From positions 1 through 48,090 of the forward strand of contig JAOPWV010000116.1 in the NCBI GenBank assembly GCA_025965475.1: a DNA stretch of 48,090 nt. Direction: 5' to 3'. A program made the translations under genes and the position numbers. A model generated the notes under the pieces. That model was not told where the DNA came from. It was given only the letters and a program-made list of their open reading frames with translations, and did no database searches. This document shows positions 2,684 through 5,984 of this stretch, one piece after another. The DNA is from Frankiales bacterium (GTDB lineage: Bacteria; Actinomycetota; Actinomycetes; Mycobacteriales; SCTD01). The stretch's first letter is position 1; every line of letters begins with the position of its first letter.

Positions 2684-2813
2684 GTCAACGAAAGCCAGCT
2701 ACAGAATTGCTGTGAGTTGGCTGTGCGTCGCCTGATCGACCGCCTCGCCTGAAGGCTGCGAACGTCCTTGCCACGGGCGGCCACACGGGCGGCCCCGAAC
2801 CCGAGGAGAGCGT
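2684..2813 (+). promoter_or_regulatory. conserved 5' leader, copy A
   Basis: This stretch aligns with 3277-3404 upstream of the next secreted-protein gene. Shared blocks, in order, are GTCAAC, AAAGC, CTACAGA, GTGAGTTG, CTGTGCG, TCGACCG, GTCCTTG and a ribosome-binding site AGGAGAGCG. A hairpin at 2693-2722 pairs AGCCA with TGGCT, CT with AG and CAG with CTG, closing on an AATTG loop. It sits 121 nt before the ATG. It may be a structured leader RNA or an operator-containing promoter. I do not recognise it as a known riboswitch. Confidence 0.5.
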
Positions 2814-3071
2814 ATGTCCTTGCGACGCGCCGCCGGCTCGACCCTCCTGGCGGCAACGGTTTTCGTGGGACTCAGTGGCGGAACGGCGTTCGCCGACAGC
2901 TCGCACGTCGACGGCAGGTCGTGGAACAACCATCACCAGTCCAAGAGCAGTGACGACTGGTGGGGCCACCACCGTCACCACGGCGACGACTGCTGGTGGT
3001 GCGATGACGAGCATCACCACCGCCGCCACCACCACCACCACCACCACGACGATGACTGGGGCCGCTGGTAG
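2814..3071 (+). CDS. small secreted His/Asp/Trp-rich protein
   Basis: An 85-aa protein with a Sec signal peptide: basic MSLRR, hydrophobic core, and a likely cut after TAFA (about residue 27). The mature part, about 58 residues, is low complexity and ends in clusters of His, Asp and Trp: WWGHHRHHGDDCWWCDDEHHH, then seven consecutive His, three Asp and WGRW. It has one CWWC. Such composition would suit surface binding of Zn, Cu or Ni, but that is inference; I recognise no named family. AGGAG lies 5 nt before the ATG. The signal peptide matches that of the next gene (21 of the first 30 residues identical) while the mature parts are unrelated. Terminator-like hairpins follow. Confidence 0.8.
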   Translation: MSLRRAAGSTLLAATVFVGLSGGTAFADSSHVDGRSWNNHHQSKSSDDWWGHHRHHGDDCWWCDDEHHHRRHHHHHHHDDDWGRW

Positions 3072-3115
3072 CGCTGGGTGTCAGTAACACACACCACCGC
3101 GGCCTAGTTCACGAC

Positions 3116-3147
3116 AAGCGGGACGGCCATCTCCGGCTGTCCCGCTT
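3116..3147 (+). terminator. terminator hairpin after the His-rich gene
   Basis: Thirteen-bp arms AAGCGGGACGGCC and GGCTGTCCCGCTT (one G-U) around a 6-nt loop, 45 nt after the stop, followed by CTCGTC. Confidence 0.75.
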
Positions 3148-3202
3148 CTCGTCGGGCGGGGTGACGCGGGCCATTCCGCCGCGCGCGTAGCAGTGGCTCA
3201 CC

Positions 3203-3232
3203 GAAGCACCCGGCCTCCGGCTCGGGTGCTTC
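3203..3232. terminator. second hairpin, possibly a backup terminator
   Basis: Perfect 10-bp arms GAAGCACCCG and CGGGTGCTTC around a 10-nt loop, followed by TTGGTCTGT. It separates the two secreted-protein genes and lies just before the second leader. Confidence 0.6.
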
Positions 3233-3276
3233 TTGGTCTGTAGTCAGGTACCTACTGTCCGAGAAAGAGGTGACGC

Positions 3277-3404
3277 GTCAACCAAAAGCACCTACAGACA
3301 TGCCGTGAGTTGCCTGTGCGCCGGTCGGTCGACCGGGGTGGGGGATCGCTGCGACGGTCCTTGGGCGGGTCGCTAAATGGTGACCTCGAATCCAAGGAGA
3401 GCGA
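3277..3404 (+). promoter_or_regulatory. conserved 5' leader, copy B
   Basis: Second copy of the leader described at 2684-2813, with the same block order and nearly the same distance to the ATG (119 nt from hairpin to start, against 121). The hairpin at 3286-3315 is weaker, but one stem position changes from C-G to G-C compared with copy A, a compensatory change. The ribosome-binding site is AAGGAGAGCG. Confidence 0.5.
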
Positions 3405-3782
3405 ATGATCCTGCGTTACGCCGTCGGCTCGACCCTGCTGGCCACGACACTCCTCACGGGGGTTGGTGGTGGCACGGCCTTTGCCGACAGTTCGAACCAG
3501 TGGAACCGCCACTCCGACAGCAGCTGGAACGACAACCACAACAAGAAGAGCAACAACGACTGGAACCACAAGAACGACTGGAAGAACAACGACTGGAACC
3601 GGAAGGACAACCGGGACCGGAAGGACAACTGGAAGAACAGCGACTGGAACCACAAGAACGACTGGAACCGGAAGAACGACTGGAAGAACAACGACTGGAA
3701 CCGGAAGAGCAACGACTGGAACAAGAAGAACAACGACTGGAACAAGAAGAACGACGGGAACCGGAACTGGAAGTCCGCCTGA
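3405..3782 (+). CDS. secreted Asn-Asp-Trp-Asn-Lys repeat protein
   Basis: A 125-aa protein with a signal peptide (likely cut after TAFA, about residue 27) closely matching that of the preceding gene. From about residue 50 it consists of roughly ten short units of the form N-D-W-N/K followed by His, Arg or Lys and Lys. The mature chain is very hydrophilic and basic, with regularly spaced Trp and no Cys. I know no family for it. Regular aromatic spacing with Lys/Asn could suit binding of cell-wall polymer or self-assembly, which is speculative. AAGGAG precedes the ATG. A strong hairpin (3804-3830) follows, so it is probably monocistronic. Confidence 0.8.
   Translation: MILRYAVGSTLLATTLLTGVGGGTAFADSSNQWNRHSDSSWNDNHNKKSNNDWNHKNDWKNNDWNRKDNRDRKDNWKNSDWNHKNDWNRKNDWKNNDWNRKSNDWNKKNNDWNKKNDGNRNWKSA
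3552..3773 (+). repeat. coding minisatellite (AACGACTGGAA units)
   Basis: The protein repeats are also repeats at the DNA level: AACGACTGGAAC followed by CACAAG, CGGAAG or AAGAAG recurs in units of about 12-18 nt. A longer block beginning GACTGGAACCACAAG occurs twice (about 3558 and 3642). Codon choice is constant between units, indicating recent expansion by slippage or recombination rather than old divergence. Confidence 0.75.
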
Positions 3783-3803
3783 GTTCACACCTGGGCAGCG
3801 CGG

Positions 3804-3830
3804 AGCGGGGCGGCCTCAGGCCGTCCCGCT
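3804..3830 (+). terminator. terminator hairpin after the NDWN-repeat gene
   Basis: Twelve-bp arms AGCGGGGCGGCC and GGCCGTCCCGCT (one G-U) around a 3-nt TCA loop, followed by TCCCCGTTCC, 21 nt after the stop. It may also serve the convergent ROK gene from the other side. Confidence 0.75.
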
Positions 3831-3853
3831 TCCCCGTTCCAGGCCAGGTCGGG

Positions 3854-5095
3854 TCAGGGGGTCGAGAAGATGAGCTCGCTGGCCGAGTAGACGGCCCCCA
3901 GCACGCCGGCGGTCTCGACGATCTCGGAGAGCACGATGGGCAGGTTGCTCGTCGCCAGCGGGAGCGACTCGCTGTAGATGGTCTGACGGATCTCGGCCAG
4001 CAGTGGATGCCCGAGCCGCGACACGCCTCCGGCGATGACGACGAGTGGCGGGTTCATGAAGTTGACCAGACCGGCCAGGACCCGGCCCAGGTCGCGTCCA
4101 CCGGACCTGATCAGGGCGACGGCGACCGGGTCGCCCTGCTGCGCGGCGATACCCACGTCGACCGCGGTGAGCTCGCGGTTCGTGGCGAGGCGCTCCGCCA
4201 GGACCGGGGACTGTCCTGCGTGGGCTGCAGCCAGGGCGCCACGCGCCAGGGCGGCGCCGCCGAAGGTGGCTTCCAGACAGCCACGTTTGCCACAGGCGCA
4301 GGGCACGTCGTCGGTGACCTTGATGTGGCCGATGTCGCCGGCGCACCCGGCTGCTCCGTGGTAGACGGCGCCCTTCATGACCATGGCCGAGCCGATGCCC
4401 GTCCCGATCTTCACGTACAGGAAGTCGTCCATGCCCTTGGCGACGCCGCCCCACCGTTCGCCGAGGGCCATGACGTTGACGTCGTTGTCGACCCGGACCG
4501 GGCAGCGGAACTCGCGGGCCAACTGATCCCGAACCGGGTACTGGCTCCAGCCCGGCATCAGCGGGGGACTGACCGACACCCCGTCGCGGTAGCTGACCGG
4601 GCCCGGGATGCCGACCCCGATCCCGCTGATCCCTGCCACGGCCGTCGTGGCCACGAGCTTGGCGATGAGGTCGTGGACCTGGGCGAGGACCTTCTTGGGC
4701 CCCTCCCGGATGTCCGAGGGCTCCTCCTCGAAGCAGATCAGGTCGAGCTGGCTGTTGGCGATACCGACGGCGACCGACGTGGCCCCCAGGTCCACGCCGA
4801 CGAATCGGAGATCGTGGCCGAGTTCGACCACCGGGGACGGCCGCCCGCCCCTCGACCTGCTCTTGCCACCGTGGCTGATCAGCCCGGCCGCACCCAGTTC
4901 GTCGAGTTCGACCGCCAGCCGGGCCCGGCCGATCTCCGCGAAGTCGACGAGCTGAGCGTGGGTGCAGGCCCCGACGTCCCGGAGCAGGCGCAGGATCTGG
5001 GCCTGGTGCGACGTGCGCGCGCTGACACCGGTCCCGAGGGGCATGCTGTCCTGCCTGTCCGATGAGCCGGCCGGTCCGACTGTCGTGGGGTCCAT
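3854..5095 (-). CDS. ROK-family transcriptional regulator
   Basis: A 413-aa NagC/XylR-type ROK protein. An N-terminal winged helix-turn-helix (SHQAQILRLLRDVGACTHAQL, about residues 29-48) precedes an ASKHA sugar-kinase-like domain with VGVDLGATSVAVG (phosphate-1-like), GIGVGIPGP and KIGTGIGSA. The ROK zinc motif is intact: GHIKV followed by CACGKRGCLE. ROK repressors release DNA when they bind a sugar, so this is the probable local regulator of the upstream ABC/dehydrogenase cluster on the same strand. I chose the ATG at 5095, 37 nt after the preceding gene's stop. The ATG at 5044, with AGGA just upstream, is a serious alternative. Confidence 0.88.
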   Translation of the reverse strand: MDPTTVGPAGSSDRQDSMPLGTGVSARTSHQAQILRLLRDVGACTHAQLVDFAEIGRARLAVELDELGAAGLISHGGKSRSRGGRPSPVVELGHDLRFVGVDLGATSVAVGIANSQLDLICFEEEPSDIREGPKKVLAQVHDLIAKLVATTAVAGISGIGVGIPGPVSYRDGVSVSPPLMPGWSQYPVRDQLAREFRCPVRVDNDVNVMALGERWGGVAKGMDDFLYVKIGTGIGSAMVMKGAVYHGAAGCAGDIGHIKVTDDVPCACGKRGCLEATFGGAALARGALAAAHAGQSPVLAERLATNRELTAVDVGIAAQQGDPVAVALIRSGGRDLGRVLAGLVNFMNPPLVVIAGGVSRLGHPLLAEIRQTIYSESLPLATSNLPIVLSEIVETAGVLGAVYSASELIFSTP

Positions 5096-5132
5096 CTTGT
5101 CCCACGGGTCCTCAGTCGGCGGGCTCCCGGAC

Positions 5133-5984
5133 TCAGAGACGCGCCAGGCAGTCCTTGACGTAGGCATCTGAGGTCGCCAGCTCCTGGGTGATCCGCTCGA
5201 GCGACCAGCCGGCCGTGCCGTGGCACTTGATGCTCGCCGCGCCCTCGTACCCGACCCTCTTCAGCGTGCCCAGCGGGACGGCATGGTCGAGGGTGCCCGA
5301 GGGGCGGGGCAGCTGCTGGTCGCCGGGCCCGAAGTTCAACCCGTCGATGCCGTGCCGGTACGCCCGGTCGATGTCCCAGATGTAGTAGTAGAAGAGTCGC
5401 TTGCGCTCGGCGAGGTAGGTGATCGCCTCGCTGATCGAGTCGCCCATGACCCACAGGTGCGGGGGAGCGAGGCAGATCCCGAGGTTCGGGTGGTCGATGT
5501 CCGTGATCAGCCGCTTGATCTGCGCGAGGCTGTCGACGCCCTCGTCCCAGCGCCGGTCCTCGTTCGCGCCCGACTCGAAGTCGGCGCTGAAGGGCACGGT
5601 GAGGTGGTTCTCCACGGCGATGCGCACGCCGGCCTTCTCGCCTGCCTCGACGAGCGGCGGAAGGAAGGACGACACGAAGTCCGGGTAGTTGGCCTCGCAG
5701 TCGAAGACCACCGCGTCGATGCCCAGGTCGCTGGCGAACGCGATGCGCTCGAGCATCTCGTCCTGCGTCTTGCCGTACATCGTCAGCCCGCACGGCCGGA
5801 CGCCGTACCGCTGGAGCGTCGCCAGGATCTTGCCCGGATCGTCCCCGGGGTTGACGTGCGCGGCGAGCGGGGGCGCCGACGACCAGAGGTTCACCTCCGT
5901 GAAGCCGAGGGAGGCGAGCTCCCTGACGGAGTCCTCCAGGGGGTAGTCGTGGTACGGGACGATCTCGGCGGTGTAGCGGAACAC
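5133..5984 (-). CDS. sugar phosphate isomerase/epimerase (AP endonuclease-2 TIM barrel)
   Basis: A 283-aa member of the xylose-isomerase-like TIM-barrel family. Candidate metal ligands lie in VVFDCEANYPD, IAVENHL and IKCHGTAGW. Family members isomerise or epimerise keto-sugars or inositol derivatives, usually with a divalent metal; the substrate here cannot be read from sequence. I chose the GTG at 5984 because AGGAG lies 6 nt upstream and the first strand (FRYTAEIVPYHDYPL) begins there. It lies between the alcohol dehydrogenase and the ROK regulator in a same-strand run, so a role in oxidising and rearranging the imported sugar or polyol is likely. Confidence 0.85.
   Translation of the reverse strand: MFRYTAEIVPYHDYPLEDSVRELASLGFTEVNLWSSAPPLAAHVNPGDDPGKILATLQRYGVRPCGLTMYGKTQDEMLERIAFASDLGIDAVVFDCEANYPDFVSSFLPPLVEAGEKAGVRIAVENHLTVPFSADFESGANEDRRWDEGVDSLAQIKRLITDIDHPNLGICLAPPHLWVMGDSISEAITYLAERKRLFYYYIWDIDRAYRHGIDGLNFGPGDQQLPRPSGTLDHAVPLGTLKRVGYEGAASIKCHGTAGWSLERITQELATSDAYVKDCLARL

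Follow-up and report, generated by a model that had tools for sequence, protein, structure and literature searches.

A probable lineage-specific family of small predicted secreted proteins with a common front end and diverged low-complexity tails in a Frankiales bacterium

Two adjacent small genes in the draft genome of a Frankiales bacterium encode proteins that start with similar signal peptides and continue with mature chains of very different composition, which raises the question of whether a mobile front end was fused to unrelated cargo or whether a single family diverged in its tails. The window, that is, the whole stretch of DNA analysed, comprises 48,090 nt and corresponds to contig C113 of a 3.9 Mb draft genome distributed over 215 contigs. 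Both genes, referred to as gene 1 (ORF1) and gene 2 (ORF2), were situated where the preliminary description had placed them, between a gene encoding an AFG1-type ATPase and a ROK-family gene on the opposite strand:

1570-2514: AFG1-type ATPase gene, upstream neighbour of the pair
2814-3071, plus strand: gene 1 (ORF1), an 85-aa predicted secreted protein
3405-3782, plus strand: gene 2 (ORF2), a 125-aa predicted secreted protein
3854-5167, strand opposite to the pair: ROK-family gene, downstream neighbour of the pair

The window contig fits the lineage, since its 14-34 kb part exhibited 77-79% DNA identity to genomes of the same genus. A binning artefact was considered and held unlikely, given this identity and the presence of the duplicated unit on two contigs. 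The named relatives of the neighbouring AFG1-type ATPase were actinobacterial, with a Frankiales MAG as the best match. The ATPase gene is present in most genera of the family and had no match at E 1e-50 in the other three genomes of the genus to which the window belongs, suggesting either loss in those species or gaps in the drafts.

With respect to the front end, a direct count confirmed that 21 of the first 30 residues of the two proteins are identical, as had been described, and both signal peptides end in TAFA followed by DSS; in the gene 1 protein, a Sec-type signal peptide was predicted at residues 1-28 (TAFA/DSS). A third gene with the same front end was identified in the genome:

C121:41493-41795, minus strand: copy 3, a third paralogue of 101 aa, on another contig of the same genome (G000)

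Copy 3 (MTLPRAIASTLLATTVFVGVGGGTALADTSQNSRSLSTHQSKTGDDWWGHKDGCECRDD...) has a FUSC-family gene on one side and a DUF347 gene on the other, and its signal peptide, mature part, and leader are homologous to those of the gene pair. Signal-peptide alignments among the three copies reached z scores of 14.5-16.6 against composition shuffles (0/500). Sec export with cleavage before D29, directly after an AxA motif, is predicted for all three proteins because each of them, by reading, carries a hydrophobic stretch after the start and an AxA before D29. The dN/dS ratio over the first 30 codons was 0.24 for gene 1 versus gene 2 and 0.26 for gene 1 versus copy 3, and the ratios in the signal-peptide codons of the three copies, which are few sequences for such an estimate, were about 0.24-0.33; judged by these values, the signal-peptide codons are under purifying selection. 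The GC content at third codon positions amounted to 0.86 in gene 1 and 0.94 in gene 2 (0.99 in its mature part), and intact ribosome-binding sites were found before the paralogues. Both ORFs of the pair have the look of genuine coding genes subject to constraint, at any rate in their front part. The 10 kb of C121 that were compared showed matches to other genomes of the family and none to genomes of the genus. On the same contig, C121:35183-35414 (L061 1184-1415) exhibited up to 88% DNA identity to several family genomes, above that of the surrounding coding matches, and might be a conserved element, either noncoding or a structural RNA.

The similarity also covers the DNA upstream of the genes. 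Genes 1 and 2 could be aligned over about 210-220 bp of upstream DNA, and the comparison of their 250-bp upstream regions (z = 12.6, 0/500 shuffles) agrees with the common leader noted earlier; gene 1 versus copy 3 gave z = 11.8 and the remaining pair z = 5.1. Within these regions, a 40-nt stretch was conserved, followed by a leader of nearly constant length:

2684-2723, plus strand: 40-nt conserved upstream block of gene 1, candidate promoter or operator
2724-2813, plus strand: leader of gene 1 in the three-leader alignment, spanning the 90 nt between block and start codon and containing the ribosome-binding site GAGGAGAG
3277-3316, plus strand: 40-nt conserved upstream block of gene 2
3317-3404, plus strand: leader of gene 2, spanning the 88 nt between block and start codon and containing the ribosome-binding site AAGGAGAG
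C121:41885-41924: 40-nt conserved upstream block of copy 3

The interval between block and start codon at copy 3 was 89 nt, compared with the 90 and 88 nt of genes 1 and 2. A pattern composed of the invariant bases of the ungapped 40-nt stretch in the three leaders (GTCAAnnnAnnnCnnCnACnnnnnTnCnGnnAGTTGnCTG), allowing up to three mismatches, matched the 3.9 Mb genome three times, each time before one of the three genes; the reversed control pattern had 0 matches in the genome. With GTCAAC and GTTGGC/GTTGCC as its outer arms, the block contains an imperfect dyad, the arm centres being about 32 bp apart. This spacing resembles that of a two-site protein-binding element. The block fits a dedicated operator or promoter, for which it is a candidate, and the three genes look co-regulated because the block precedes each start and occurs nowhere else in the genome. 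No consensus sigma-70 promoter was found, and matches to an ECF-type promoter within the block, tried by eye, were unconvincing. The search of the region against Rfam yielded nothing near gathering scores, that is, no known riboswitch or RNA element, and no leader RNA element is proposed since the RNAalifold fold derived from the three sequences had many broken pairs and an unfavourable covariation term. The preliminary description had proposed that an export-and-expression front end was duplicated, which the third copy and the restriction of the block to exactly these three genes bear out. Further cassettes joining this front end to other cargo, as envisaged there, were not found beyond copy 3 in the bacterium's own or related genomes, and the own genome contained no additional convincing copy of the signal peptide.

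Regarding the mature chains, their compositions were as previously reported. That of gene 1 is His/Asp/Trp-rich (17 H, 10 D, and 7 W among 57 residues, i.e., 30% His) and includes one CWWC motif, and that of gene 2 is Asn/Lys/Asp/Trp-rich (30 N, 16 K, 15 D, and 13 W among 97 residues). The mature chain of copy 3 contains 16 Asp, 6 His, and 4 Cys, and, as read from its sequence, a CxCRDDGGW segment occurs twice, providing two CxC motifs. The two chains of the pair had been called completely different and unrelated; the difference in composition holds, whereas an absence of relatedness is not supported, as a motif common to all copies is located near the mature start:

2934-2960, plus strand: codons for HQSKSSDDW in gene 1, the mature motif common to the three copies
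3537-3563, plus strand: codons for HNKKSNNDW in gene 2, counterpart of HQSKSSDDW in gene 1 and HQSKTGDDW in copy 3

In this segment, SWNNHHQSKSSDDW of gene 1 aligns with SWNDNHNKKSNNDW of gene 2, and both share SWNxxHxxKSxxDW; the first 26 mature residues of the two proteins gave z = 4.0 (1/500 shuffles), with a dN/dS of 0.26 for this mature seed. The more general form HxxK[ST]xx[DN]DW was present near the mature start in all three copies and arose by composition shuffling in 0.015%, 0.165%, and 0.01% of cases, bearing in mind that the motif was picked once the alignment was known. Copy 3 and gene 1 are homologous in their mature parts (z = 5.4, 0/500 composition shuffles); the alignment includes HQSKxxDDWWGH, followed by a Cys/Asp/His region, and extends almost to the end of gene 1. 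Gene 2 is linked to the family via gene 1, since its comparison with copy 3 over the first 26 mature residues was reached by 77/500 shuffles and is not significant alone.

Past the seed, no alignment of the gene 2 tail rose above shuffles, and this tail is composed of an array of short units in which Trp recurs mostly every 5-7 residues. At the DNA level, repeat arrays of 18, 21, and 51 bp were located within 3555-3766, and a late unit, NKKNNDW, shares 18 of 21 bases with the final part of the seed. The tail of gene 2 probably arose by repeat expansion from the seed rather than by replacement of cargo, and growth of the seed into the tail is the simplest reading of these data. Of the two possibilities left side by side in the preliminary description, cargo that was replaced or cargo that was expanded, the DNA arrays favour the second for gene 2 and speak against replacement. 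The proposal that unrelated mature parts were joined to a mobile export-and-expression front end could draw on the very unlike tail compositions of genes 1 and 2 and on their full-length mature alignment, which was reached by 39/500 composition shuffles and is not significant. The aligned mature N-termini of the pair (1/500), the mature-part homology between gene 1 and copy 3 (0/500), the HxxK[ST]xx[DN]DW motif in all three copies, the DNA repeat array forming the gene 2 tail, and the lack of any other gene in the genome with the block or a convincing signal-peptide copy all count against it, and we consider it improbable.

Downstream of the genes, the terminator layout that had been described as common to the pair corresponded to GC-rich hairpins:

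3115-3147, plus strand: GC-rich hairpin after gene 1, a possible terminator without T-run, fold -30.9 kcal/mol
about 3203-3236, plus strand: second GC-rich hairpin between the genes, fold -25.7 kcal/mol
about 3803-3831, plus strand: GC-rich hairpin following gene 2, its sequence resembling that of the hairpin at 3115-3147, fold -32.5 kcal/mol

The similar hairpins after both genes agree with that description, with the qualification that all three lack a classical T-run, that a terminator scan detected none of them, and that the downstream similarity of genes 1 and 2, reached by 6/500 shuffles, is weaker than the upstream one. The layout is limited to the tandem pair, because the downstream alignment of copy 3 with gene 1 was reached by 84/500 shuffles and copy 3 showed no clear hairpin counterpart.

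The mature chains exhibited GRAVY values of -2.2 to -2.9 and contained one residue each from the set A, V, I, L, M, F, Y, and P. A single-sequence AlphaFold2 model of gene 2, a type of model that is often poor and whose low confidence is a weak sign of disorder, had a mean pLDDT of 54.6 and a pTM of 0.23, with no confident fold. From the GRAVY values, the residue make-up, and this pLDDT, the mature chains are therefore likely disordered. The mature part of gene 2 has a pI of about 9.9 and a charge of +7.8 at pH 7, at which the other two chains are slightly acidic. Judged by composition, divalent metals would be plausible ligands for the chain of gene 1, with its 17 His, 10 Asp, and 2 Cys, and for that of copy 3, with 16 Asp, 6 His, and 4 Cys; gene 2, with its positive charge and 13 Trp, looks suited to binding polyanions or sugars/glycans. 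Histidine-rich metal-binding small proteins occur in bacteria, and gene 1, with 30% His together with Asp and CWWC, and copy 3, with two CxC, resemble them; the present proteins differ from them in having an export signal, a high Trp content, a His-poor Asn/Lys paralogue, and no family match. The basic chain of gene 2 and its 13 Trp among 97 residues would also be compatible with a secreted cationic Trp-rich antimicrobial accompanied by His-rich partners. Genes for immunity, maturation, or dedicated transport are not apparent next to either locus, where the neighbours encode AFG1-type ATPase, ROK-family, FUSC-family, and DUF347 proteins; moreover, the chains of the two supposed partners, gene 1 and copy 3, are on the slightly acidic side at pH 7, and Trp constitutes the sole hydrophobic content, which makes an antimicrobial role very improbable.

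Among known systems, the nearest functional idea would be the chaplins and rodlins of Streptomyces, whose chemistry is opposite. According to the published accounts (PMC5314377, PMC3079736), these are small secreted actinobacterial paralogues encoded by several genes that are presumably co-regulated; among the rodlins, the rodlet layer depends on both RdlA and RdlB, a homologous pair of secreted proteins (PMC5314377). The small actinobacterial proteins described here, which carry a Sec signal peptide by reading only and whose genes have a common upstream block, could likewise be surface-assembly proteins under shared developmental control. Pfam detected no chaplin or rodlin domain in them, however, and their extremely hydrophilic Trp/Asp/basic chains are unlike the hydrophobic, amyloid-forming chaplins, for which reasons we rate this explanation as improbable, marginally below that of exchanged cargo.

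A comparison with 23 further genomes of the family, including three from the same genus, revealed no convincing relatives. The 397 sampled genomes of the order and the 395 sampled genomes of the class yielded only short signal-peptide-like or low-complexity matches; several were inspected and proved to be chance matches of these kinds in unrelated frames, and one match in these searches, in G055, had an E of 5e-4 and lay in a 575-aa frame. A scan of 84,980 species genome assemblies returned no homologue, and the plasmid and viral contig collections contained no relatives. Genes of this kind were not found beside the AFG1-type ATPase gene in 13 other family genomes, as judged with a crude signal-peptide filter over up to 1.5 kb. 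In Pfam, genes 1 and 2 matched 0 families at E up to 10 and copy 3 matched 0 at E up to 0.001; with no NCBIfam match either, the earlier statement that no described family fits can be maintained. The PDB sequence search gave no match, and no described family that matches was found in the literature. The lack of near-relative homologues, the tails made of short DNA repeats, and the conserved signal peptide are features shared with orphan secreted repeat proteins, from which the three paralogues differ in having a dedicated upstream block that is unique in the genome. The low complexity, the lack of homologues outside the genome, and the poor structure prediction might also be expected of decaying or barely functional genes, i.e., chance-expanded orphan ORFs without a selected product. 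The dN/dS well below 1 across the three paralogues, the third-position GC of 0.86-0.99, the intact ribosome-binding sites, and the conserved block and spacing argue against decay, the least probable of the explanations considered here.

Taken as a whole, the account that we regard as likely is that genes 1 and 2 and copy 3 form one lineage-specific family whose front end was duplicated and whose tails diverged. The duplicated unit would comprise the promoter block, leader, ribosome-binding site, signal peptide, and the short mature seed HxxK[ST]xx[DN]DW, and its duplication would have been in tandem at this locus and dispersed to contig C121. The mature tails would then have diverged as codon repeats grew and sequences drifted, subject to a loose constraint on composition that retained Trp, Asp/Asn, and a basic residue with almost no aliphatics, gene 1 and copy 3 becoming His/Asp/Cys-rich or Arg/Asp/Cys-rich and gene 2 becoming Asn/Lys-rich. 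Transcriptional co-control of the three genes may be exerted via the 40-nt block. The products are probably secreted, disordered, Trp/Asp/basic low-complexity proteins of the envelope or matrix, a function that we infer. They would most likely act as flexible binders in the wall or matrix, perhaps as polyvalent binders in the cell wall or extracellular matrix. More speculatively, and by composition, gene 1 and copy 3 might buffer divalent metals, and gene 2 might stick to anionic wall polymers, glycans, or extracellular DNA; the assignment of a specific ligand to any of the three proteins is far less probable than the family account itself.

A more ambitious reading, which we consider unlikely, is that of a dedicated three-gene regulon in which nothing stays constant except a private 40-bp control element, the signal peptide, and the 9-residue seed, and in which the secreted tails vary by repeat growth. 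If true, the regulon would act as a small generator that supplies the envelope or matrix with diverse secreted disordered polymers, with tail chemistry free to vary between metal-binding acidic/His and basic Asn/Lys/Trp types.

Judged by the sampled genomes, the family is new, small, and lineage-specific, and its importance is probably modest; through the private upstream block, co-regulation of its genes can be tested directly. It would offer a clean, small case of the origin of new secreted low-complexity proteins within one bacterial lineage, in which the front end is kept under selection as the exported tail shifts in composition via repeat growth.
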